Assembly (NCBI GenBank): GCA_021904315.1
Contig: CM038912.1
Coordinates: 10,131,061-10,195,060, forward strand
DNA from: Sphagnum magellanicum
Taxonomy: Eukaryota > Streptophyta > Sphagnopsida > Sphagnales > Sphagnaceae
Reading direction: 5' to 3'
Length of the DNA: 64,000 nucleotides
Numbering within the stretch: position 1 is the first letter of the stretch; each line of letters opens with the position of its first letter. Below the pieces are notes generated by a model. The model was not told the DNA's origin. It searched no databases and saw only the letters and a list, made by a program, of their open reading frames with translations. This document shows positions 3,060 to 45,288 of the stretch, in pieces. The translations under genes were made by a program, and so were the position numbers.

Positions 3060-4800
3060 ATTTGTGTGGAGGGGTGAATGGAAGATGGAACAAAAGAAAA
3101 GTTGCCTAAACTTAGAACCATCCAACATGACAAAAGACCTTCATTATGATTCACTATTTGGGTTAGCCTTTAAAGTTTAAAGTTATATTTGTGCATTCAA
3201 GTTGAAGCAAATCTTTCATGGAATTTTTTTTAGCTTGAAGTTCCACCATGAACCTTTGAAGTTTTCTATTGCTTGTAAATGGTTAACTTTGGTTTGATAT
3301 TTCAAAAGCTTGTAAATGTTTAATGGGCTATGTTTCCAAAATGCAAAAACTTGCCTTGCCTTGTAATGTTGATGTGTGTTGTTAAAGACCCGACACTTAA
3401 TTTTGAAAGGGGGTCATTTAAATATCATGATAAAAAAACCTATGTATACCTGTCCGGGTATCTATTAAAAATTGGGGCTTGTACCCAATTAACCACATAC
3501 CCAAACCCATGCCCCCACCTCATAATCCCCACTGACTGAGTTTCTAAAACTCAGACCCAGTGGGTTCTATACATCTTTGAAAACTCAGAAAACCACACCC
3601 AGTGTGGGGTGGGTTTTGATTTTAAAATAAAAATCGGGTCTGGGTTCTAGAAACAGCCAATTTGTGGAATTAGCAGAATTAACAAATTGTCAATACAAGA
3701 GACATGAGGTGCATAATTTGTGCAACTTTGTGCAGTAGAAATGACCAAAGCACTCGTCAGTCAGTTTCCTACATTTTGGTATGGAACTATGGCTCCTTTT
3801 CAGAAGTGGGAGTCCTTAGCACACTACCCATGCCTCCTATGACGAATTGGACGTGTAAAGGTATTGATGGTAAACAGACCAAAAGCAGTAATTCAAATAA
3901 CACATTTCTTCCAAGAAAGGGGGCGGGGGGGGGGGGGATGTAGTTTGCGCCAATTAGTTTTGACCCTGTGGCTCTCTTTGCTCTGTTTTTGTGGGACTAC
4001 TGCCTTCTTTTCATAAAAGTGACTTTGTGATTCTCGAATATTTAATGTATTGTGTCTACTGCCTCCTTTTGCCAAGTGGTTAGTTTAATTCATATTTTGA
4101 AATGTAAAGAAACCTAGTCAGTTCTAACAGAGCAATAATCCACATGAATTATTACTCTAATGAGTACCACGTAGAAATGAATGTACGGTAGGTTACATAA
4201 CAATAATAGTTAAGAAAAATTCGAACAAACCTGACCATGATGAGCCAAATAAAGTACCCATGTCCAGCTAAAATTTGCCCACAAAAGACAAAGGGAACCG
4301 CCCTTCTGTTTCAAAACTGTTGTGGAAAATGGATATTGGGAGTTTAAAGTTAGGCCGACAACACTGTCTGTGGAAACATCGGTTTTGAAAAGACTTGTTT
4401 TTTCTCCCTTTTTATTTGGGGCACTCTGCTTTTTCTGTAGGCATGCAAACTTCAAAGGGTAATTGTAGGGAGGGAGGGTAAATGTGAATTCTCGAAAAAG
4501 TAGACTGCATGGATTAGAGTATTTTCTATGGCCTTGAGAATAAGGTCAATCTTTGTTTTCCTCCTTTTTTACTACAGAAATGGTCAAGCCCTTGCCCATT
4601 ATGTTATGAAGGTGCCAGTTTAGCCCATTAGAACAAGTCCCATGATACACCCAACAGAAAGGGGAGGGCTCAAACCACTCCATAACGTTAAGATCTGGGG
4701 TTGCAAATTCAACAACTTTGGTGAAAATTAGGTTCAACAGACATGTTTTGATCATTATAATGAGTGCATGATCATCCAAAAATTATGTTAAATAATATGA
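3060..4800. other. Gene-free stretch with a G13 run
   Basis: No convincing coding sequence is seen. At 3540-3650 the words CTCAGACCCAGTGGGTTCT and GGGTCTGGGTTCT form a short GT-rich block. A G run lies at 3925-3937. Short ORFs on both strands show no domain and no codon structure. Confidence 0.5.
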
Positions 4801-4879
4801 TGAAGAAAATGACCCACCTAATCTGCCACCCCCACCCCAGATCTTAACCCCTGAACCTCAGAGAAAGCCAATATGGACT

Positions 4880-25635: not shown

Positions 25636-25896
25636 ATGGATGCAATTAGACCTGCTAAATTTAATGTAGGTTGGAGGGGAACTTGGGATGAAAGGCTACA
25701 CATAATAGAAGAAACTATAGCTGATGAACTTGGACTTTCAAAATATAGGCGTCCCTATTTTTATTGTTGTGGGGGTGGGAGGCCTGTATTAAGGTCAATT
25801 GTTGAGGCCCACTTTACAAAACATGGATGTGATCCAAAGCTGATGAAACCCGTATTAATACATTGCTCAATCCTTAACAAAAATATATTTGTATAA
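25636..25896 (+). pseudogene. Possible N-terminal exon of a TNP2-type CACTA transposase
   Basis: An 86-codon frame contains PYFYCCGGGRPVLRSIVEAH followed by FTKHGCDP. A Cys/Gly-rich turn followed by an HF-x-KHG helix is reminiscent of the zinc-binding N-terminal domain of TNP2-family transposases. It lies on the same strand as the TNP2 catalytic remnant at 37842-38400, and two complete insertions lie between. Assignment is inference; it could be an unrelated repeat ORF. Confidence 0.3.
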
Positions 25897-26382
25897 AATT
25901 AATGAATGTGTTTGGAAGGGATGCCACGACACATTGATATCAAGCCCTTGAAAGTTTGTGTTTCAAAGTTAGTTATATAAAACATGTATTGTATAATGCA
26001 TGTCTGTAGATACTGATAATGTTGCTTGTGTCATGTGTCACTAGAAGAAAAAGGCCAATATATGACCGTCACATTTACAACTACCTGCAACTATTTGGTC
26101 TTTGCAACTAAATTTTTGTTATCTACGACTATTGTGACATCGTGCTGACATCAGTCAAGTCATCTTCGACTAACCTGCAACTAGTTTGCGACTAATTTTA
26201 TTTTCATCTATATATGGGTTGGATTTATCATCCAAGAGTAGTCATTTAAAGTCCCATTTAGTCGTAAGCGAAATGGTGCTTAGTCATAGTTGACGTATGT
26301 CTATATGTAAAATATTGTATTGTATGGTGTTTTAGTGAAAGTGTTATACAAAGGTGTAAAATACAAATTTGTACATATTCAA

Positions 26383-26403
26383 ACCCTAAACCCTAAACCC
26401 TAC
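26383..26403 (+). repeat. Telomere-type (CCCTAAA) repeats, left arm of the CACTA element
   Basis: About three CCCTAAA units, the plant telomere repeat, lie about 345 bases inside the left terminus. A larger set lies in the right arm in the same orientation. Confidence 0.85.
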
Positions 26404-26453
26404 CATAATTTATATGGTAGTGATATATGTGTTTTTTGTGATATTGCTTCATT

Positions 26454-27480
26454 ATGCATGTACAGAGTCGAAAACAGCAAATAGAGTTAGTTGTAACACA
26501 AGAGAATGATTTTGACAAGGAGGCAGAGAGGCGATCAAAATCTTTGTTATTCTTTCAAGGGGTTCACACACTGCTCACAATTGCCATCACATTGTTGACC
26601 ATGTATCTTTGCATCTGTTTCCTGACATCAGTTCCCGACATTGAGCAATCTTGCTTAGAGTTCTTGCAGAGCAGGTACCAGTTTTGTATCTCGGAAGCAT
26701 TCGTTGGAGTTTGTGTGAGCTTTTTGTTTGTTTTTCGACGAAGACGTTTGTGGGTAAGAAAACACCGCTGTTTTCTTGAGGGAGGAAACGGAAGAGCTTC
26801 TGTCGCGACGAAGAAGAAGAAGAAAAAGCAAGCTCTTGTCTAGCAGCAGTGAGCTTCAGGTTGTGCGGTAGTTACTTCTAGGGTTTGGGGACGACAAAGA
26901 CGGAGATGGAATTTGGCTTTTCAGAGCAGTTTCTGGAGTCACTCGCATTGCGTTGTCTGCTTGTCTCCACTTTTTTCCCTCTTCGTTACTGTTCCTGGGC
27001 AAGGTTCTTTGTTGTTTTCTCTCAAGCTGCTGCTGCTGTGTGACGAGCTTAGGCTAAAGCGGCTTTGGCAAGCAAGGTGCTCAAAGCGGAGCGGTGGCGA
27101 GCAGCAGCTGAAATTTGAGCTTGTGGGTGTCTTCACCCCAATGGCTTCTGAAAGACAAGACAAAAACCACCCTCGCTCGCCCTTGTTGTCATCAACCCTA
27201 AACCCATCGTTTTTCTATCGCGCTGTCTCAGTACATCTCTCCTCGCGCTGTGGTTGGTTGTGATGATGATGATGATTTTCTTCCCGATTGCCGAAACATT
27301 TGTCGTTGTGCAGAACTCTTCGACGAGTGATCTAGTTCATGAAAGGCATGGCTGCAGAAGCAGAAGAAGAAATAGAAGAAAACGTGAAGAAGGTGATGAT
27401 CAGGTTTTGGATCCTCTAACCCTAATTAGGAAGTGGGTGATCGATAGAGAGAGAGATGGTAATCGCTGCTGCTAAAGACA
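26454..27480 (+). other. Unassigned captured sequence in the CACTA element
   Basis: A 129-codon frame at 26454-26843 begins hydrophilic (SRKQQIELVVTQENDFDKEA), then has a hydrophobic stretch suggesting one or two membrane spans, then a very basic tail. From 26880 to 27470 the sequence is GC- and CpG-richer than the flanks and looks like a plant promoter/5' UTR, ending just before the glycosylase exons. It was probably captured together with them. The first frame's source is not recognised. Confidence 0.4.
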
Positions 27481-27628
27481 GCAAAAGCACTTTGCTTGCA
27501 AAGCATCATCTGGTTTTAGCAGCATTTGCGCAACTGGGTTCTGAAGAGAAGAATCCATTTCTGAGAATAGCTTCTTCTCTCTTTCTCTGTCGGGAAGTGT
27601 GATTCTTCTTCTATCGTTCTGTGAAGCA

Positions 27629-28503
27629 ATGGTAGAAGGCCCCGGTGTGCACCGTGTTGCGCTCGTCCATCGTCGTATGCTTCAGGGCCGCGTAAGTAGA
27701 GAATTCGTCACCCAGCTCTCTCTGTCTCTCTGTGTTTGTCCTTCTTGTGCTCATAACAGCTAGGATTTTGGGAAGAAACCAAAGGCTTATTTTTTTTGCT
27801 TCATTTCTTCTTACTGATGAATTTTTCTGCGTGTGATTTTTTGGCCTGTCCAGGTTTTTCAAGCAACTTCACCGAGTGGAAGATTTTTAGATAGTGCAGC
27901 AGCTATCAATGGACGTGTGCTGTCACACATTGAAGCTCATGGGAAGAACATCTTTTATGTAAGAAGCTTTTGCTATCTCTCTCTCTCGTCAGTCATGGAA
28001 TGCTTCTGGTCTTGTTGCCTTGCATGGCTTGAATGTGTGAAAGAAGCAGCTAACATGTATCCAAGAGCTTAAGACTCTCTGTTGTGATGGTGCACATTCA
28101 AGCTTCTGATGCTGCTGCAGCTGCTGTTGTGGGAATAAGCATTCTATTAGTTTTTCACACCAAAGAAAGTAAAGGAGGAGGAAGGTGTGCTTGAGAAACT
28201 GGGATTGGATGCAGTTGTTGTTCATATCCATTTTGGTATGTCAGGCTCCTTCCGCACCTTCCCTTATCCTGGTAAGTTTACATTTTTTTTTCTTTTCTTT
28301 CTTTCTTCCAGAATCAGAGGAGATTGCAGGTTCGGCGTGCTCAGAAGGATGCAGAAGGAGAGATGATGGTTTGATGCAGCAGCAAACTCTGGAGATGATG
28401 ACCCAGATTGGCAGTTTCAGGATCTTTCAAGCTTTTTGGCAGTGAATTGTTGTGGTGTATATATATATAACAGGACCTGAGCCACGGGAAGCTCTGATGC
28501 TCA
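27629..28503 (+). pseudogene. Captured NEIL/Nei-like DNA glycosylase exons 1-4 (5' part)
   Basis: Exon 1 (27629-27691) reads MVEGPGVHRVALVHRRML and ends at a GTAAGT donor. Exon 2 (27854-27958) reads SPSGRFLDSAAAINGRV, then HIEAHGKNIFY, then a GTAAGA donor. Exon 3 (about 28164-28271) reads LDAVVVHIHFGMSGSFRTFP and ends at GTAAGT. A short exon 4 (28474 to about 28503) reads PEPREALM. Phases agree across all junctions. This is the N-terminal catalytic domain of the Fpg/Nei family, which excises oxidised bases. Glu3 and the H-x-H-x-G-M-x-G strand are kept. Residue 2, the nucleophile, is Val where most family members have Pro; Val2 is also the normal state in NEIL3, so it need not be a lesion. The H2TH and zinc-finger parts are absent, so the captured piece cannot be a full enzyme. 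Confidence 0.78.
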
Positions 28504-28525
28504 GTTCTAAGTATTGTTTAGGCAG

Positions 28526-28640
28526 CTGTACCCAGGTTGCCCAAGAGGCTGCTGCAGAAGAGGTGCCAATTGTCTCAGTTTATCCAGGGATGGTGTATGG
28601 ACCTGGAAAACTTACTGCAGGAAACTCCCTTGCTCTGATG
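28526..28640 (+). pseudogene. Captured exon of a farnesol-dehydrogenase-like SDR
   Basis: The exon reads VAQEAAAEEVPIVSVYPGMV followed by YGPGKLTAGNSLALM, flanked by an AGGCAG acceptor and a GTAATG donor. This matches the extended (atypical) short-chain dehydrogenases that include Arabidopsis farnesol dehydrogenase, a Rossmann-fold NAD(P) enzyme. The block lies just after the YxxxK catalytic motif in such proteins; the motif itself is not in this exon. It follows the glycosylase exons by about 20 bases on the same strand, so a transcript could splice the two sources together. No other SDR exon was found in the element. Confidence 0.72.
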
Positions 28641-29154
28641 GTAATGTTTCAAATCTACCAATCTTTTCTTGAAGCTCAGTAGTGTATGAGTAAACAGCCT
28701 CTGATGAATACATTATTAGGTCAGTTGTAAGCTGTGTGGACATTTGGCACTTATTACAAGTTATACAGACGACAGTGTAATTGAATAATGCCTTTGTCTT
28801 AGATGCTTGCTCCTTGAAATATGATATTGCTGTTTTTGAAAACTAGCTCTGCCTCTTGACTGCTAGTTGACATATTGACTGAGTCTTCCCCTTGCTCAAT
28901 GTGACAGAAACTCAGCACACAGGTTTTTGTAGAGTTTTTCCCTCTTAGTCTTCAACAGATTTTTACGAACTTATCTACATGTCAGTAGCTGATGATATCA
29001 GTTGGCGATAATGGCAGTTATCACTGCCATTCATGATGAAAGTGATGGTCTTATACTTTGTCAGAAACTCAAAAGATCATCATGACTGGATTTGTTCTTG
29101 TTACATTTATTTTTGGTTTTGGCAGAACTTTGCAGAACATTTGTTTTGGTTACC

Positions 29155-29395
29155 CTAAACCCTAAAACCTGGGCACATCACACCCTAAACCCTAAACCTA
29201 AACCTAAACCCTAAACCCTAAGCTGTAAATAAATGCATTATTTAAAACTAAAATAAAAAACTAATTGCCACATGTCATAATCCCACAACTTAGGGTTTAG
29301 GGTTTAAACCTAAACCCTAAACCCTAAGCTGTAAATAAATGCATTATTTAAAACTAAAATAAAAATCTAATTGCCACATGTTATAATCGTTATGA
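29155..29395 (+). repeat. Telomere-type repeats and a ~105-bp tandem duplication, right arm of the CACTA element
   Basis: CCCTAAA and degenerate CCTAAA units run from about 29153 to 29221 and again at 29307-29322, with the inverse word TTAGGGTTTAGGG at about 29291-29306. The segment beginning CTAAGCTGTAAATAAATGC occurs at about 29218 and again at 29323, about 105 bases apart, with only a few base differences. Confidence 0.85.
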
Positions 29396-30031
29396 GTAAA
29401 ATCGAACGGTCCATATATATTGCAATTATTTAATAATAGAATAAATATCATATTAAAAGCCACGTGTCATAATCCTAGTGCTTGAATCGGACGGGTAGTA
29501 TTATTAGATGTCATGAAGAATTTTTAAATCAAATATCCAATATGCCACGTGGTCTCTATGCATTGGTGGAAAATAATAACCAAAATAATTGTTGAATACT
29601 AGCACCACATATGTATATTCGTATTTTGTCATGAACTGGTGGTTTGTACGCTGAACAGTTTCCGTCCACCTCGTTGTCGCCTGCGACTAAGGATGCCTGC
29701 GACTTGTCCAAGGCGACTACACAACTTTTAGTTGTAGATGTCGCCTTCGCCTGTGACTAGAAAACAGTTGCGAGGACCAGTCGAAAAAGTCTACTTTCCT
29801 TCTAGTGTGTGTATTCTTGCACTCTTTTTACACTATCCATCATAGGGGGTTGATGGAGTTGAATCAAAAGCCCTAAATGAAAGGGACACAATGGGTCATT
29901 GCAACATGGTGGCAAATGAAGTCCCAAGCATGGATCAAAACATTCAACTGGGAAGAATGTTAGTTGACAACTTTCAAAGGTGATGAGTTACAATAGAATA
30001 TTAATGGACAGGTAAGGACCTTCTAAAGCCA

Positions 30032-30878
30032 AAAGAAGAGGGTCCTATGGAAACAGACAACGCATACACTATCTGATGTGAACCCTAGTGTCCATGTTTC
30101 ACAAATCAATCTCACACCTACTGACAGCTCAACATCTCCAAGACTCAAACTGGCTTCCTGCTCTCCCTGATTCCTTAACGATTCAAAGATTGATCGACAC
30201 AATGACGCAACAATTCAACAACACACACTTCTGGTCATGCATCTCTACACTGATGCAATTCCAAAGAAATTCTTCATTCTTATTCACAGAATATGTACAT
30301 CCTCGAAAGCTCAAGCAATTCTGGCCATTAGAAGTTCACACAAAAAAAAAAGGGTCCGATGGTGCCTCAATATATTGTTTTGATTCTCCTTAATTCCTCT
30401 CATCTACTTCTGCAACAAGAGCTCAACTATACATCAGACGCAGCGGAAAATCCCAAGCATAGCTAAGCTCTTTTCTACAAAACTCCTAGCTCCTCTCTCC
30501 TGCCTCACAACTATCTGCTACCCATCTCCCAAAATTGTCCTCCTAAAAACCACCTTCCTGATCCTTTTTCTTCAGCCTTTTGTTGGCTTCTTCCAGAAGC
30601 TTCTCAAATTCTCCAGTGTCGCCTCCCTCACGCTCCAAACCGCCATTCTCCATAATTGCATTGCCGACCTCAATCATAATTTGGAGCCGCCATTCAAGCT
30701 CCATACCCATTCAGTGCAGTCGTCATGCAAATTCCTCAGTACAACTCCTCTCCCCAATCCAGCAAAGCTTCCCATGTAAAAGCAGCCATCATAGAAACCA
30801 ACGGCTTGATTAACAAACGACCTAACTTCCCTGATCAGTGACGTCCAGGAGTCTGATGTAACCTAATTTCAGGTTACA
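30032..30878 (-). repeat. 3' LTR of the gypsy element
   Basis: About 847 bases, aligned end to end with 36990-37838. On the minus strand it starts TGTAACCTGAAATTAGG and ends CCCTCTTCTTT, so the 3' terminus lacks the usual CA. A poly-A run differs in length between the copies (10 versus 14). Confidence 0.9.
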
Positions 30879-30885
30879 TATGTAG

Positions 30886-30898
30886 CCCCTCCCTTCTT
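30886..30898 (-). promoter_or_regulatory. Polypurine tract
   Basis: On the minus strand AAGAAGGGAGGGG lies about seven bases before the TGTAAC start of the 3' LTR, where plus-strand DNA synthesis would be primed. Confidence 0.75.
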
Positions 30899-30913
30899 AA
30901 AAAGTTGAGTCCC

Positions 30914-32268
30914 TCAGCTCTGCTTAATCAGGTTGCATGTGGAAGATCTGTAAGTCCCTCCTTGATCTCTCCCACTGCATTCCGTCAGCATCTTGAATGA
31001 TACACAATCGACATCCTTCTTCAAAGTCATAGTTGCCTTTCCCATCCACATGCCCAACAAGCCGGTATGGGCCTTCCCAACTTGCAACCAACGCATGCTT
31101 CTTGCCTGGCTTCTTCATTTTGACCATGGTTCCTCCAGCAATGAGACCTTCAAACAGGTGTTTGCCTTTCCTGTTTGCATACGTGCTTCATTGCCTCTTT
31201 TGTGCCTGCTCTACGTTGAGCAAGACGTTCTCGTGTATGCTTGCTATGAGCTTCACCTTCTCCAGAAATTGTGCTGCAATCTGTCCCACATATGTATCCA
31301 AACAAAACCTTAGCCATGTGCTCATCCCAGCAATCCACATTCGCTGGATTCGTGGCCAGAACCGTGATACCATGCTTGATGGTCTTGATCATGTGTTCCG
31401 CCATGCCGTTGCACTGGGGCCACTGAGGTGCAGTGCGTTGATGCTGTATAGCATAGTCCTTGCACATAATCTCAAATTCTGCACCCCACTCCCCTCCATT
31501 GTCAGTCAGTATAAACCCAGGCACTCCATACCTGCAAATTAAATTGTCTTCTAGGAACCTGGCTGCCGTCCTTGCACCATGATCAGCCACAACCTTGGCT
31601 TCACACCACTTAGAGTAATGGTTGATGGCCACAAGTATGTACTCGTTCCTTGCCTTGGTTTCAGGCAGAGGCCCCGCAGTGTCCATCGCCACTCTATAAA
31701 ACAAATCACAAATAGGGATGCTTTTGAGCCTCTCATCCCCAAATCGGATGCTTCCTTCACTCTTAACCAGCTGACATTGTTAGCAACTCCTGACCACCGA
31801 TTTGACGTCCTCAGTGCGACAGTGCCAGAAATACCTCCGACAGATCTCAGCTAAGAGCCTCTATTCGCTAGAGTGCCCCAAGTCCTCATGCATCTGCACC
31901 ACTAGTGTCCTTTCCTCAAGTCTGGGCACATACAGGTCTTTGAAGAAGAGCCTCTGCTCTTTCCAACAATAGTGCTCTGCTCGCTTCCTAGCTCTCTTGC
32001 CCTCCTCTAGCTCAACCACATCGGGCAGCACTCCTTCCTTCAGGAGCGCCAGGCAGGTTGAATCCTGCCATATGTCAAGTTCCTTCACTTCAACTCCATA
32101 CTTAGCTTTTTCATCCACAATGGTTAGGTTGACCTTATGACCTCTGGCCTCAGACAATCCTTGGGCAGCTAGAACCAGCTCCAGCTGCTGCCTTTTGTCA
32201 TAATACCTGATTCGACCCTTTCGATGCCCATGATCAACCTCCAAGTCTTCATGTTCGGCTGCCCCCAA
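30914..32268 (-). pseudogene. Gypsy integrase, interrupted
   Basis: The zinc-binding HHCC region is at about 31750-31900: H-E-D-L-G-H, then a pair of cysteines broken by a stop (SC, stop, QC). The catalytic core (31150-31704) shows MDTAGPLPE (first D), LTDNGGEWGAEFE (second D) and PQCNGMAEHMIKT (E), the D,D,E triad. The tail at 30924-31127 carries SWEGPYRLVGHVDGKGN, a GPY/F module, in a shifted frame. The region before the zinc domain (31950-32268) is a basic linker. It would have inserted the cDNA; it cannot now be made. Confidence 0.85.
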
Positions 32269-32407
32269 CCGTTCTGCGCTTGGGGTAACCTCCTCTTTCT
32301 GAATCAGTTGTAGTCACCAAGTCAATCATGAATAGGTGGTGAGGTTCTGAATCGTGCCAATGTTTGATTTCGGGATGACACCCGTGATGCTCAGTAATTT
32401 CCCTCAA

Positions 32408-33918
32408 CTACCTTCTGTTCCCACACCACTCCATATATTGGCCATGTCGAACAGACAGTACCTTCTCAACTGTCGCTGGTAGTCCATGTTGTGTGTGGGG
32501 ATCATCCTGGATCTCCTGTTGGAAGTCCTCATCATCCACAGCTTGCCCCATCGGATTCCGACTCAGGGCATCAGCATTCACATGCCTCATTCCCGGTCGG
32601 TGGACTATCTTGAAGCTGTAGTCCTGGAGCAGGTCAATCCATCTACCTCTTCTTCCATGCGCATCGGACACAGTCGCCAGCCATTTGAGCGGCTTATGGT
32701 CCGTCCTCAACGTGAAGTGGGTTCTATGCAAGTATTGTCTGAAGTGCAGGATCCCCCAAATCAAAGCATAGCATTCCCCTTCCATGGGGTGAAACTTCTT
32801 TTGTGCCACCGTCAATGCCTTACTGGCGTAGGCTATGACCCTCTCAAACCTCCCCTCTTTCTGTGACAGGATCGCACCAACACCCTTGGTCGACCAGTCC
32901 ACATCAAGGCAAAATGGCTCCTTGAAATTCGGCCTCACCAAAATTGGAGCTCCCATCAGTGCCTTCTTCAAAGCGTCAAACGCCCTCTGGCAATCCTAAG
33001 TCCAGACAAAAGCCACATCCTTCTTAGTAAGCTCAAACAAAGGACCTGCCAATTTCGAATATCCCTTAATATAATTGCGGTAGTACCTGTCAGCCCTAGG
33101 AAGGATCTGACAGTGGTGACTGTCGTAGGTATTGGAAATCCCCGCACTGCATCGATCTTACTAGGGTCAGGCCTAGTTCCTTCCTTATTGACTACATGTC
33201 CTAGGAAAACAACACTTGCTGCAGCAAAACAGCACTTGCTCGGATTCAACTTCAGGTTCACTTCCCTTAGTCTAGAGAGTACAGCTCCCAGATGCTGTAA
33301 ATGATCCTGCCATTCTTCACTGTGGACATTGAGGTCGTCAACGAAGACCTTTAGGAACGAGTCCCCTACATCCTTGAAGACTTCGGTCATGGTCCACGTA
33401 AAAGTACTCGTGGCATTTTTGAGTCCGAATGGCATGACAGTCCATTCAAACAATCCGCTTTTGGTAACCAGTGCTGTCTTTCCCATGTCCTCAGGAGCCA
33501 TCCTGATCTGCCAAAATCCCAATTGCAAAACTAACGCAGTGAACCATGCTGACTTTCCTAATTGAGAGATTACATCTTCTACTAGGGGCATAGGGAATGA
33601 ATCCCTCCGAGTTTGTAAGTTGAGGGGTTTGTAGTCCCCATAGAATCACCTGCTCCCATCCTTCTTGATTGGCAGAGTTACACGGCATGCATATGCTGAG
33701 TTGCTTGGCCGCATTTTTCCCAACTCGACCAACACATTAATCTGCCGGTTTACCTCGGCCTCTTCCCAATATGACAATCGACCAGGAGCTACCTTACAAG
33801 GTGGGAATCCTTGTGTGTCGATGATATGCTCTCCAACATTGCAACATCCGAGTTCCCCTTTGTTCCATGCGAACACATCTTCATATTGCTCCAGAATGCT
33901 CCACAGTTGTCGTTCCAT
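32408..33918 (-). pseudogene. Gypsy reverse transcriptase and RNase H, interrupted
   Basis: The RT start (33646-33918) ends at a TGA just after IKKDGSR. Fingers and palm follow at 32968-33591: LGFWQIRMAPED, TVMPFGLKNATSTF and the FVDD catalytic loop. A frameshift near 33080 moves the thumb and connection into another frame, which carries one more stop near 32998. RNase H (32408-32971) has FCLDVDWSTKGVGAILSQ, then YALIWGILHFRQYL, TLRTDHKPLKWL and VNADALSRNP. Domain order and motifs are those of plant Ty3/gypsy elements. Confidence 0.88.
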
Positions 33919-33951
33919 CCCTTTATCCAGGTGCTGATCGATCCTGATCTT

Positions 33952-35256
33952 CTAACAAATCTCACCCCACCGTGTTTCCTCCTTGGGGTTCTTCATGATT
34001 CGCTCTTCAAATCCATCGCCGGAGTCATTGATCTCCATCCGCTGAATCTTCAGCAGCACAGATTCCTCGGCTGTAATTGTTGCATCTGATAGACTCTGCA
34101 TACGTCGCTCCTCATCATCAGCCCATTGGATCCAGTTGGCGTAATCATCATCATCAGTAAGCTCCTCCCTCATAAAATCGTCCGCATTGGTCTACATTGT
34201 CAGTCACAGAATCTGCTGGGGTCCCTCCTTCTTGACCAATTCTTCAAACTCGATATCCCCAAACTCAGATGCCTCCTCATCATGATCCACCAACTGAGTT
34301 GCTTCTTCTGAGCTTTCGCTTGAGTCAGAGTTAGACTCAAATTCCAGCTCAGTTAATAACTCACAAGTGTCCTATCGAGATGAGTAGGACGCTCCGCCCA
34401 TTACTTCCGAATTCCCAGATGCATGTCTCCTAGTACAATCGTCTTTGTAGTCACTAGTGACTGAGTCGGATCTCTGCATTAAATTCACCATGGTGAGTGG
34501 CAACACTTCCACATCAGCCCCAGGACCTTTCCTGACTTGGATCAGTCCCTGTTCAACGTCTACAATCGCGCCAATTTTGACCAGCAGATCAAGCCCAAGT
34601 AAAACATCATAGCTATCGGTATCTACAACCATGAAAGTCATCCTGCATTGCACTCCTCCAACTTTTATTGTCACCTCCTCAATTCGGCCGAGTGCCTGGG
34701 TAATGGCACCTGAGGTCGTCTTGTATGCTTTTGATCCAGACACTAAATGCATTAGACCCAGCTCCCGAACTACTGCAGCTACCATGACTGACATGGATGC
34801 CCCAGTATCCACCAGTCCTTCAATTAAACACTGGTTCACTTCCACCGAAAGGTGGAGTGTTTTGCTCCTGTGCGTCTTGTTGATGCACAGACGTCTAAGT
34901 GCTGGGACAGCAGAAACCATCGACACTTGAGTGTTTGCAGCCTCCGTATCTTTCTTCCTTTGATCTACCTTTACAAGATTCTCCAGGTGCTCCAACTCCC
35001 CTGGTATCATCATCACTGTCTCCATCGACGTTAGTGATACCTTTCCTTTGACAAAATGGGAAAGAATCTTTGATTTGACAGACTCTTCTCGATTCGCTCC
35101 TGCTCTCTCAATTGTGGCATCAGCTGTTAGTCCAGACGTTGCTGGCGTCACTTCCACAGGCATTCTTCTTCTTGGTACCCGAGTGTAGGAGAACAAGTTC
35201 TCACTCCCACACAACTTGTTAAGCTGGTGCAGGGTCGCTTCCTCATCATCCAGCAT
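33952..35256 (-). pseudogene. Gypsy protease and linker
   Basis: The 294-codon frame 34372-35256 contains the retropepsin active site VDTGAS (D at residue 150 of this frame) and the later YDVLLGLDLL strand, as in plant gypsy aspartic proteases. A stop at 34372-34374 and further stops near 34195 separate it from an acidic linker (33952-34173) leading to RT. All of these lie in the same frame as gag. Confidence 0.82.
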
Positions 35257-35310
35257 TACCTCCAGGAAGTTAGCTGATCCGGGGTGCGTCTTCCCATCCC
35301 TTGGTTTCTT

Positions 35311-36120
35311 CTAGCATCTGTCCTCCGAATGACCTAATCCTGTACAGAAGGAACACTTCACACCACAATTCTCTGTCCTATGCGGCATCCCACATTTAGC
35401 ACATTTGGGCCGGGGTTCATTAAGCCTCGAACATGCTATGGCAGTGTGGTCTCCTCCTCTACAAATTTGGCATACTACAAACATGCTGGAAGAGGATGAT
35501 GTGACAGGTTTAGACACATTCCCTTTCATGAAATTGATCAGCGTATCATTGAAAGCATTAACTTGCTTCTCCATCATTATCTCAGCAACTCCCTCCTCCT
35601 GTTTTTCTTTCAGAGGTTCGAATGGAGTTTCGCCGAGCTCACCCAACACCCTCTCAAGTTTTGTGGCAGCACCCACCATCTCTTCTATGTAAGTGTATGT
35701 CCTAACAACACATATTTTCCTAATTTCTGGTTTCAGCTTACCCAGAAATCGCCTCCTTTGTTCAGCATCGGGAATTTTCCCCCGCTGAAATAGCTTATCC
35801 AATTGCTCAAAATATCTCTGCACCCGCTCCTTGGGTTCCTGTTTGATGACATCGAGCTTCATTCGAATGTCATCAGTGTCCACATGGCCATACTTCTGCA
35901 AAATCAGTGTTCTCAGCTCAAGCCAGTCGGCCGGCACCGGCTGTAGCTTTCGGAACCACTCCCGGGCTCTGCCTCTCAAATTGAGCTTGGCAATCTTGAA
36001 AAGTTTGTCCACGTTGAGGTCGCGCACCTCTGCCGCCATACTGAGCCGTTTAGCCCAATTGCTAACATCCTCATGATCGCGCCCCTAGAAAAATTCGTCC
36101 ATGCCCTGTGGACTAGTCAT
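35311..36120 (-). pseudogene. Gypsy gag with three zinc knuckles, one internal amber codon
   Basis: The frame opens with an ATG at 36120-36118, meets a TAG at 36087-36085, then runs 242 codons to a TAG at 35313-35311. It includes a retrotransposon capsid region (LRGRAREWFRKLQ, then RYFEQLDKLFQRGKIPD) and three C-terminal zinc knuckles: CQICRGGDHTAIAC, CAKCGMPHRTENC and CSFCTGLGHSEDRC, the middle one with a shortened spacer. Gag forms the particle that packages the RNA. Both ambers sit where a tryptophan TGG would fit, which suggests G-to-A change. Confidence 0.88.
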
Positions 36121-36974
36121 CCTAAAGAAGCGTAATTAGGACAGAGAAAATAGCAAAACTACTTACAGACACAAAGCCCTTCAGACAAAATGTATGAACT
36201 CAACAACTGCTCATTGCTGCAGTTCAACTCGGATTACAAAAGCATAGACGTCGAACTACACACTGAACTCTGACTGAGCTCCTTCATGCACAGGTCTCAA
36301 AGGTTCAAAGTTTGATGGGAGGGTAGAAAAACGTTGCTCATCCGTTGACTGTTGTTGAAATCGCCATTGTCCTTCTTGTCCTAACCACACCCTCCAGCTA
36401 ATCAGGCGGGATCTGGATCCGCTATGCTCCACCCGAAGCAGGCGATCTCCCTCTTAAAACAAGTCTTCTACTCCAGGTATGTACAGCCTCACAAAATGGT
36501 TTGGCGACACTTCCGATCTAGGAATCCATATGTCCCCCAGTCTTGGGACACTGCATTGCCTTTCTGCAAGGCCAAGAGCGACCCTACGCAAGGTAGGAGG
36601 TGAAGTAGAAGTTGTCTTGAAGTTCTGAGGTCCATGCCCACCCCCTTGCTCCATCTGTCACTTTCACCCAGACCCGTGCACTGGTGTAGAATCCACTGTG
36701 GGATACTTCCACAGCGATGTCCCCTACCCGAGCTTAGTCAGGGTTTATACCTACAATTCTAACTATACCAAAACCCAGAAATCGTAAGATCACAGCTCCC
36801 CTTTGTGGCCCGTTCTGAATGGTCCCGAAATCAAACCTACGAACCAAGTTCAGTTCACAATTTTCCTGTGTTATGAGCTCTACAGGAATCTCTTCTCCAC
36901 TAGACGAAGACATTATTCTCACGTTTCATATTACCTCGATCGTTATCAGCTCTATACTGGCCACAACTACGCAA

Positions 36975-36989
36975 CCAACTCTGATACCA
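36975..36989 (-). promoter_or_regulatory. Primer-binding site for initiator Met-tRNA
   Basis: On the minus strand TGGTATCAGAGTTGG directly follows the 5' LTR. The first eleven bases match the complement of the plant initiator tRNA-Met 3' end. Confidence 0.88.
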
Positions 36990-37838
36990 AAAGAAGAGGG
37001 TCCTATGGAAACAGATAGCGCATACACTATCTGATGTGAACCCTGGCGTCCATGTTTCACAGATCGATCTCACACCTACTGACAGCTCAACATCTCCAAG
37101 ACTCAAACTGGCTTCCTGCTCTCCCTGATTCCTTAACGATTCAAAGATTGATCGACACAACGACGCAACAATTCAACAACACATACTTCCGGTCATGCAT
37201 CTCTACACTGATGCAATTCCAAAGAAATTCTTCATTCTTATTCACAGAATATGTACATCCTCGAAAGTTCAAGCAATTCTGGCCATTAGAAGTTCACAAA
37301 AAAAAAAAAAAAGGTCCGATGGTGCCTCAACATATTGTTTTGATTCTCCTTAATTCCTCTCATCTATTTCTGCAACAAGAGCTCAACTATACATCAGACA
37401 CAGCGGAAAATCCCAAGCATAGCTAAGCTCTTCTCTACAAAACTCCTAGCTCCTCTCTCCTGCCTCACAACTATTTGCTACCCATCTCCCAAAATTGTCC
37501 TCCTAAAAACCACCTTCCTGATCCTTTTTCTTCAGCCTTTCGTTGGCTTCTTCCAGAAGCTTCTCAAATTCTCCAATGCCGCCTCCCTCACGCTCCAAAC
37601 CGCCATTCTCCATAATTGCATTGCCGACCTCAGTCATAATTTGGAGCCGCCATTCAAGCTCCATACCCATTCAATGCAGCCGTCATGCAAATTCCTCAGT
37701 ACAACTCTTCTCCCCAATCCGGCAAAGCTTCCCATGTAAAAGCAGCCGTCATAAAAACCAACGGCTTGATTAACAAACGACCTAACTTCCCTGATCAGTG
37801 ACGTCCAGGAGTCTGATGTAACCTAATTTTAGGTTACA
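36990..37838 (-). repeat. 5' LTR of the gypsy element
   Basis: About 849 bases, partner of 30032-30878. It should hold the promoter for minus-strand transcription. No TATA box was singled out. Differences from the other LTR are, by my count, all transitions apart from the poly-A length change. Confidence 0.9.
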
Positions 37839-37841
37839 CTT

Positions 37842-38400
37842 CCATAGTAGCCAACTTGCTGATGGTGAACCTTCTAATGGGGATAAAAATGTAGGTGATG
37901 ATTTTGACCTGAAGGCATGGAACTAGAACATGATGATGATTATGATGAAACAATGTCAAATATGTTTAGGGAGGCTCAAACCCCATTATAGGAGGGTTTC
38001 CCACTAGTCGGCTCGCCACTATCCTCTTAATCCTTAATTTGTGTAGTACACATGGAATCAATAACATGTTTGGGGATGAGCTCTTCTCACTATTGAAACT
38101 TGACCTCTTCCCAAGGGACAACACCCTTCCAAAGTCTTTGTATGAGGCAAAGACCATAGTGAAGCAATTGGGATTAAACTACAACTCAATTCATGCATGT
38201 TATAATGGGTGTGTTTTGTTTAGGGGAGAACTAAGAGGAGCCACATCTTGCCCAAAGTGCAAGAGGTCAAGGTTTATTGAAATGTTAGATACAATTCCTT
38301 TCAAGGTGCTTCGTCACTTTCCATTGATCCCAAGGTTGAAATGAATGTATAGGTGTCCAACCTTGGTAGATCTAATACATGTATTATTGTGTAAACACTA
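37842..38400 (+). pseudogene. Fossil TNP2-type CACTA transposase
   Basis: The plus strand reads EHDDDYDETMSNMFREAQTP, then a stop, then, in another frame, HGINNMFGDELFSLLK, NTLPKSLYEAKTIVKQLGL, YNSIHACYNGCVLFRGELRG, CPKCKRSRF and VLRHFPLIPRLK followed by a stop. This is the conserved start of the TNP2 domain (LPKS-Y-EAK, then IHAC-N-C-LFR, then CP-C). It begins within a few bases of the gypsy 5' LTR, so the retrotransposon probably landed in it. A stop and a frame change break it, and the DDE core is missing downstream. It may be related to the source of transposase for the CACTA element 8 kb upstream, but this cannot be shown here. Confidence 0.82.

Positions 38401-45194: not shown

Positions 45195-45288
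<94 letters not shown>
45195..45288. repeat. Compound (CT)31(AT)16 microsatellite
   Basis: A perfect CT array at 45195-45256 runs straight into a perfect AT array at 45257-45288. Confidence 0.97.

Follow-up and report, generated by a model that had tools for sequence, protein, structure and literature searches.

A multi-donor, gene-carrying CACTA element of Sphagnum magellanicum with telomere-type repeats at its joins

How does a DNA transposon come to hold pieces of genes that still reside on other chromosomes, and what lies at the joins between the pieces? The question is raised by a 64,000-nucleotide stretch of the Sphagnum magellanicum genome (G000:C6:10131061-10195060), hereafter the window, in whose coordinates positions are given unless another chromosome or element is named. 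Within it, a non-autonomous, gene-carrying CACTA (EnSpm-type) element spans 26039-29807, a length of 3,769 bp. Four donor loci of its cargo are still in place on four other chromosomes (C1, C5, C19, and C11), and telomere-type (CCCTAAA)n tracts lie at its left-arm/core, cargo/right-arm, and right-arm/right-arm joins. Its features, in order, are the following.

26036-26038: left copy of the target-site duplication (TSD), TGT; a single TGT stands at a related empty site on C17
26039-26381, plus strand: left arm, consisting of the terminal inverted repeat (TIR) CACTAGAAGAAAA and the subterminal region, common to 20 of 20 fetched siblings up to about element position 340-360
26382-26402: tract AACCCTAAACCCTAAACCCTA at the left-arm/core join
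26402-26452, plus strand: element-core remnant of 51 bp (positions 4751-4801 of sibling L010), 98% identical to L010 and L009 and also present in L011 and L018
26456-26636, plus strand: cargo 1, from C1:22528374-22528554 (minus strand), 96% identity; inside a long reading frame for a putative membrane protein
26637-26663: filler of 27 bp, resembling neither adjoining donor
26664-27142, plus strand: cargo 2, from C5:10107234-10107722 (minus strand), 93% identity with gaps; upstream of a Myb-like reading frame
27143-28493, plus strand: cargo 3, from C19:8019992-8021358 (plus strand), 96% identity; 5′ part of a NEIL/Fpg-type DNA glycosylase gene
28494-28533: filler of 40 bp, in frame within exon 4 of a predicted chimeric reading frame
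28534-29154, plus strand: cargo 4, from C11:18836198-18836814 (minus strand), 95% identity; part-exon and intron of an NAD-epimerase-type gene
29152-29169 and 29183-29221 (29152-29221 overall): two tracts at the cargo/right-arm join, separated by a 13-bp filler, from sequence and sibling comparison
29223-29282, plus strand: right-arm fragment, first copy, 98% identical to L009 and L010
29290-29327: head-to-head tract, TTAGGGTTTAGGG then CCCTAAACCCTAA, between two right-arm copies (inverted repeat I4, 95% complementary)
29330-29807, plus strand: right arm, complete copy with the right TIR at its end, from sibling alignment and genome matches
29808-29810: right copy of the TSD, TGT, read from sequence

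The tracts stand where canonical siblings continue uninterrupted. The siblings are the 20 best by left arm, each examined within 10 kb: 19 have no tract at the place of the left-arm/core tract, the exception being L024, and the head-to-head tract is absent from the 10 whose right join was read. The C11 donor DNA at the cargo/right-arm join is also without a tract. Telomeric insertion at a break is marked by a tract at the join that is missing from both parental sequences, and this is the arrangement found here. When the genome was searched (438,994,042 bases in total), the exact left-arm-plus-tract pattern matched once, at this element, and the exact tract-plus-right-arm pattern three times, always within it. 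Tracts of 13-mer length numbered eight in 297,737 bases of the genome, counted with overlapping loci removed: six in the element, one at the left join of L024, and one elsewhere. The segment 29199-29282 recurs as a repeat at 29305-29388. The C-rich strand runs toward the piece downstream of it at both the left join and the cargo/right-arm join. This orientation, like the head-to-head arrangement between the right-arm copies, is as expected if telomerase-healed ends later fused. The Sphagnum telomere repeat is TTTAGGG, and the available portion of the same report leaves the occurrence of interstitial tracts open (PMC10856949).

The interior was assigned to its sources with a query of 26400-29150, which gave 525 candidates genome-wide, of which 40 were scored. 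Among these 40, the only full-length match was the element itself, the next best were the pieces on C1, C5, C19, and C11, and the others were weaker (68-87%). Alignment to the fetched donors sets sharp limits to the host cargo at 26456-29154, or 2.7 kb including the two longer fillers; the remaining interior consists of the core remnant, tracts, and fillers. The C19 piece covers exons 1 to part of 4 of the glycosylase gene, introns included, and the NEIL/Fpg-type assignment is based on a PF01149 match of E 9e-8 on the joined exons, with solved-structure matches at E 0.1 or worse. The C11 donor gene matches PF01370 above the cut-off (E 1e-4), whereas the Myb-like reading frame at the C5 donor matches PF00249 below it (E 2e-4). 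The name Orai-1, considered for the C1 gene, was rejected, with a Pfam match below the cut-off and a best solved-structure match of E 1.3. The C5/C19 join has neither filler nor microhomology, and the two fillers within the cargo gave three exact 12-mer matches and zero 14-mer matches in the DNA examined. Substitutions relative to the donors were 8/181 for C1, 12/474 for C5, 34/1349 for C19, and 28/621 for C11, a cargo-donor divergence of 2.5-4.5%. A preliminary description of this DNA had put the captured host sequence at 3.8 kb, a figure that also takes in the arms, core remnant, and tracts, and had suggested relatively recent movement, to which this divergence lends no support. Its statement that no transposase is present agrees with the cargo, all of which is assigned to the four host loci.

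The ends are those of a CACTA element. The TIRs CACTAGAAGAAAA and CACTAGAAGGAAA agree at 12 of 13 bases, and CACTAGAAG occurs once per strand across the whole window, both times at the element termini. No other CACTA/TAGTG pair in the window reaches 12/13 identity. Two hundred first-order shuffles yielded 79 such pairs in total, just one of them with a matching TSD, and this test together with the genome-wide family rules out a chance origin of TIR and TSD. Each terminal 220 bp contains four motifs of the GC[GA]ACT type, where the mean is 0.2; 0.6% of windows reach this density, one of them an unrelated patch at 14.1 kb that is as rich as the element ends. The 7- to 9-mers common to both 300-bp ends show no excess over random pairs, so that it is the motif count that speaks for subterminal repeats. 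The preliminary description had placed the element, TSDs included, at 26036..29810, which is right to the base, as is its perfect TGT duplication; the 13-bp length it gave for the TIRs also holds, with one mismatch, and its subterminal repeats are borne out by motif density but not by sequence sharing between the ends. TIRs starting with CACTA, a 3-bp TSD, subterminal repeats, and tnp2-type relatives place the element among the CACTA (EnSpm) transposons, and gene pieces whose donors remain elsewhere, with no transposase inside, give it the character of a Pack-TYPE element.

A large family shares these termini. A left-arm query of 262 bp found 125 candidate places genome-wide, and all 40 that were scored begin at query base 1 with 79-100% identity; a right-arm query of 248 bp found 55 candidates, of which 40 were scored, 26 being strong matches that run to the last base and the other 14 weak. 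The left arm is present in all 20 fetched siblings and right-arm matches in 10 (one of them partial) within the 10 kb examined; none of the 20 contains the cargo of the element. Left and right ends could be paired by place and strand in 16 siblings, the other 4 remaining unpaired, and 15 of the 16 have a perfect 3-bp TSD, the exception being L023 with GTC/GTT. Seven paired siblings reach about 14-33 kb by the coordinates of their arm matches. The tnp2 transposase domain PF02992 was found in two of six scanned reading frames, in the large relatives L014 (3e-66) and L012 (9e-19), and such relatives would supply transposase in trans. CACTA elements are reported to make up 6.8% of the Sphagnum divinum genome in the part of that study available to us (PMC9946827).

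A site without the insertion exists on C17. When joined, the flanks of the element align unbroken to C17:16913308-16913671 at 89%, and they also cross the junction at places on C11 (81%) and C2 (72%), over part of the query. The C17 site lacks exactly the element and one TGT, leaving a single TGT; its left flank stays colinear over 1.7 kb and its right flank over 215 bp, with roughly 87% identity, and it also lacks a long terminal repeat (LTR) element found at 30029-37838 of the window. The empty-type sites on C17, C11, and C2 are paralogous, not orthologous. The element may lie within an older element, relatives of which are on C17 and C11. By eye, plus-strand reading frames at 25680-25890 and 37970-38341 resemble parts of another CACTA transposase; a Pfam search gave no support for a CACTA transposase at 37970-38341.

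Several siblings carry cargo of their own. L024 is a mosaic with a telomere-type tract at its left join and reads, in order, left arm, CCCTAAACCCTAAA, pieces from C1, C13, C8, and again C1, and right arm. Its C1 gene is the donor gene of cargo 1, and the C1 pieces in the two elements do not overlap. The cargo of L021 consists of pieces from C12, C3, and again C12, perhaps with a further 121 bp from C19. L019 bears the L021 mosaic at 99-100%, the two elements lying on C10 and C8, and L015 bears part of it at 98%. Captured cargo thus moves, since L019 holds that of L021 nearly unchanged, and the identity is a sign of recent movement within the family. Both L024 and L021 have donors placed between two pieces of one outer gene, and their joins show 0-9 bp overlap or a 5-bp filler. 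As a separate observation, a reading frame at L009:1279-1653 is protein kinase-like by eye, in an interior stretch partly common to L009, L010, L016, and L018, and is perhaps another, older captured gene. The shared termini, the many genomic copies, the siblings bearing different cargo (L024 and the trio L021, L019, and L015), and the four donors support the original description of the locus as a gene-carrying (Pack-)CACTA element.

The mosaic was probably made by break repair, through end-joining that brought in copied donor DNA and telomere-type repeats. Breaks would have arisen inside an element whose interior was replaced during repair, with most of the core lost; pieces of the four loci would have been copied in by templated synthesis while the donors stayed put; and short telomere-type tracts would have been added at the joins of element ends or element pieces, with telomerase, or a telomere or telomeric repeat-containing RNA (TERRA) template, as their presumed source. 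Several points weigh against this account. No repair intermediates were seen, nor was an in-register telomerase start at the joins. Of 21 elements, with left joins read in all and right joins in 11, two have tracts at arm joins; these are the present element and L024, which may not be independent because they have the C1 donor gene in common. Genes were taken up without tracts in L021, L019, and L015, and the background frequency of tracts is based on 0.3 Mb. More tentative is the idea that healing of broken transposon ends by telomerase, or templated by telomeres, is itself a step in gene capture; here healed ends would have been retained before donor copies were attached to them, and the fusion of two such ends would be recorded in the head-to-head tract that separates the right-arm copies. 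We consider this rather doubtful.

Capture may also have been serial, an ancestor with the C1 piece being broken repeatedly and a donor being placed within older cargo at each repair. Such a course would differ from the break-repair account in timing and is not its opposite; we put its chances a little short of even. The outer pieces (C1, C11) are more diverged from their donors than the inner ones (C5, C19), at 36/802 vs. 46/1823 (Fisher p = 0.010), but exon, intron, and untranslated stretches may differ in evolutionary rate, and the grouping into outer and inner pieces was chosen after the numbers were known. In L024 and L021, the enclosure of donors by two pieces of one outer gene is in keeping with serial capture, as is the presence of the C1 gene and a left-join tract in both L024 and the element described here, although the C1 pieces do not overlap and common descent is left without comparable sequence.

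The published explanation for Pack-CACTA elements, as summarised in the accessible part of PMC13317346, starts from two adjacent elements that are deprived of complementary ends by aberrant excision, after which the chromosomal DNA between them is taken up by the hybrid. The right arm clusters with L015, L019, L021, and L024 (100/98) and the left arm falls outside those four (89/85), so that the arms could come from two family members; the left-arm placement is weak, however (84/0, bootstrap not settled), which makes the hint of a hybrid slight. That explanation predicts one contiguous local stretch between two elements, whereas the cargo consists of four pieces from four unlinked donors on other chromosomes, and no right-arm matches lie within 1.2 kb on either side of the donors. 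We consider it improbable for this element.

Boxes of the sequence AAACCCTAA are frequent in plant promoters, and single CCCTAAA/TTTAGGG units are fairly frequent in the window (30, of which 10 are inside the element), so the tracts might be older promoter motifs or an older interstitial tract carried along with a donor or arm, but this is very unlikely given that the donor DNA at the joins and the canonical arms are both without a tract and that the exact arm-plus-tract patterns are confined to this element.

The mosaic also contains an open, in-frame predicted fusion of the NEIL/Fpg-type glycosylase with the NAD-epimerase piece.

27629-27691, 27854-27958, 28151-28271, 28474-28640, plus strand: predicted four-exon chimeric frame, 152 codons long and stop-free

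GT follows exons 1-4 and AG precedes exons 2-4, and the predicted frame reads through the 40-bp filler. Exons 1-3 differ from the donor gene by two synonymous and four non-synonymous changes; constraint is not evident. Elsewhere in the window, the sequence at 30029-37838 is an LTR retrotransposon with LTRs of ~850 bp (30029-30878 and 36987-37838) that are 96.5% alike and with minus-strand reading frames that are Ty3/gypsy-like by eye, and a perfect (CT)31 is directly followed by (TA)16 at 45195-45288.

Multi-gene CACTA cargo, Pack-CACTA elements, and telomeric repeats at mammalian breaks are already known, and the comparisons that follow draw on the available portions of the cited papers. Tgm-Express1 of soybean, a 5.7-kb CACTA element assembled from exon and intron fragments of five unrelated genes (PMC1947982), likewise contains pieces of several genes; chimeric transcripts were shown there, whereas the fusion here is predicted from sequence and the present mapping places donors, nested siblings, and a related empty site within a single genome. 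"Telomer" is not a term in the text of that paper. Pack-CACTA and other Pack-TYPE elements share with this one a non-autonomous nature, inverted-repeat ends, host gene pieces, and the lack of a transposase (PMC8903248, PMC13317346), but their neighbouring-element model is a misfit for four unlinked donors, and "telomer" is not a term in either paper. In the horse, insertion of telomeric repeats at breaks is accompanied by deletions, additions, inversions, and duplications (PMC7215372). Such mammalian interstitial telomeric sequences resemble the present case in their short tracts and in rearrangement at the break site, and differ in occupying ordinary chromosomal sites rather than the arm, core, and cargo joins of a plant DNA transposon. 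In the terminons of bdelloid rotifers, telomeric repeats mark element truncations and host genes are captured nearby, but these are Penelope-like retroelements that occupy chromosome ends and differ in their enzymes and termini (PMC6431247). Our literature search found, in the available portions of the papers, no account of telomeric tracts at transposon gene-capture joins.

There is no settled account of how genes are acquired by plant DNA transposons, and the tracts that fill the joins of this element hint at a route. Donor loci, joins, a related empty site, post-capture copies, and tracts at element joins are all available in one genome, and this makes repair-based capture, with a part for telomere repair, directly testable.

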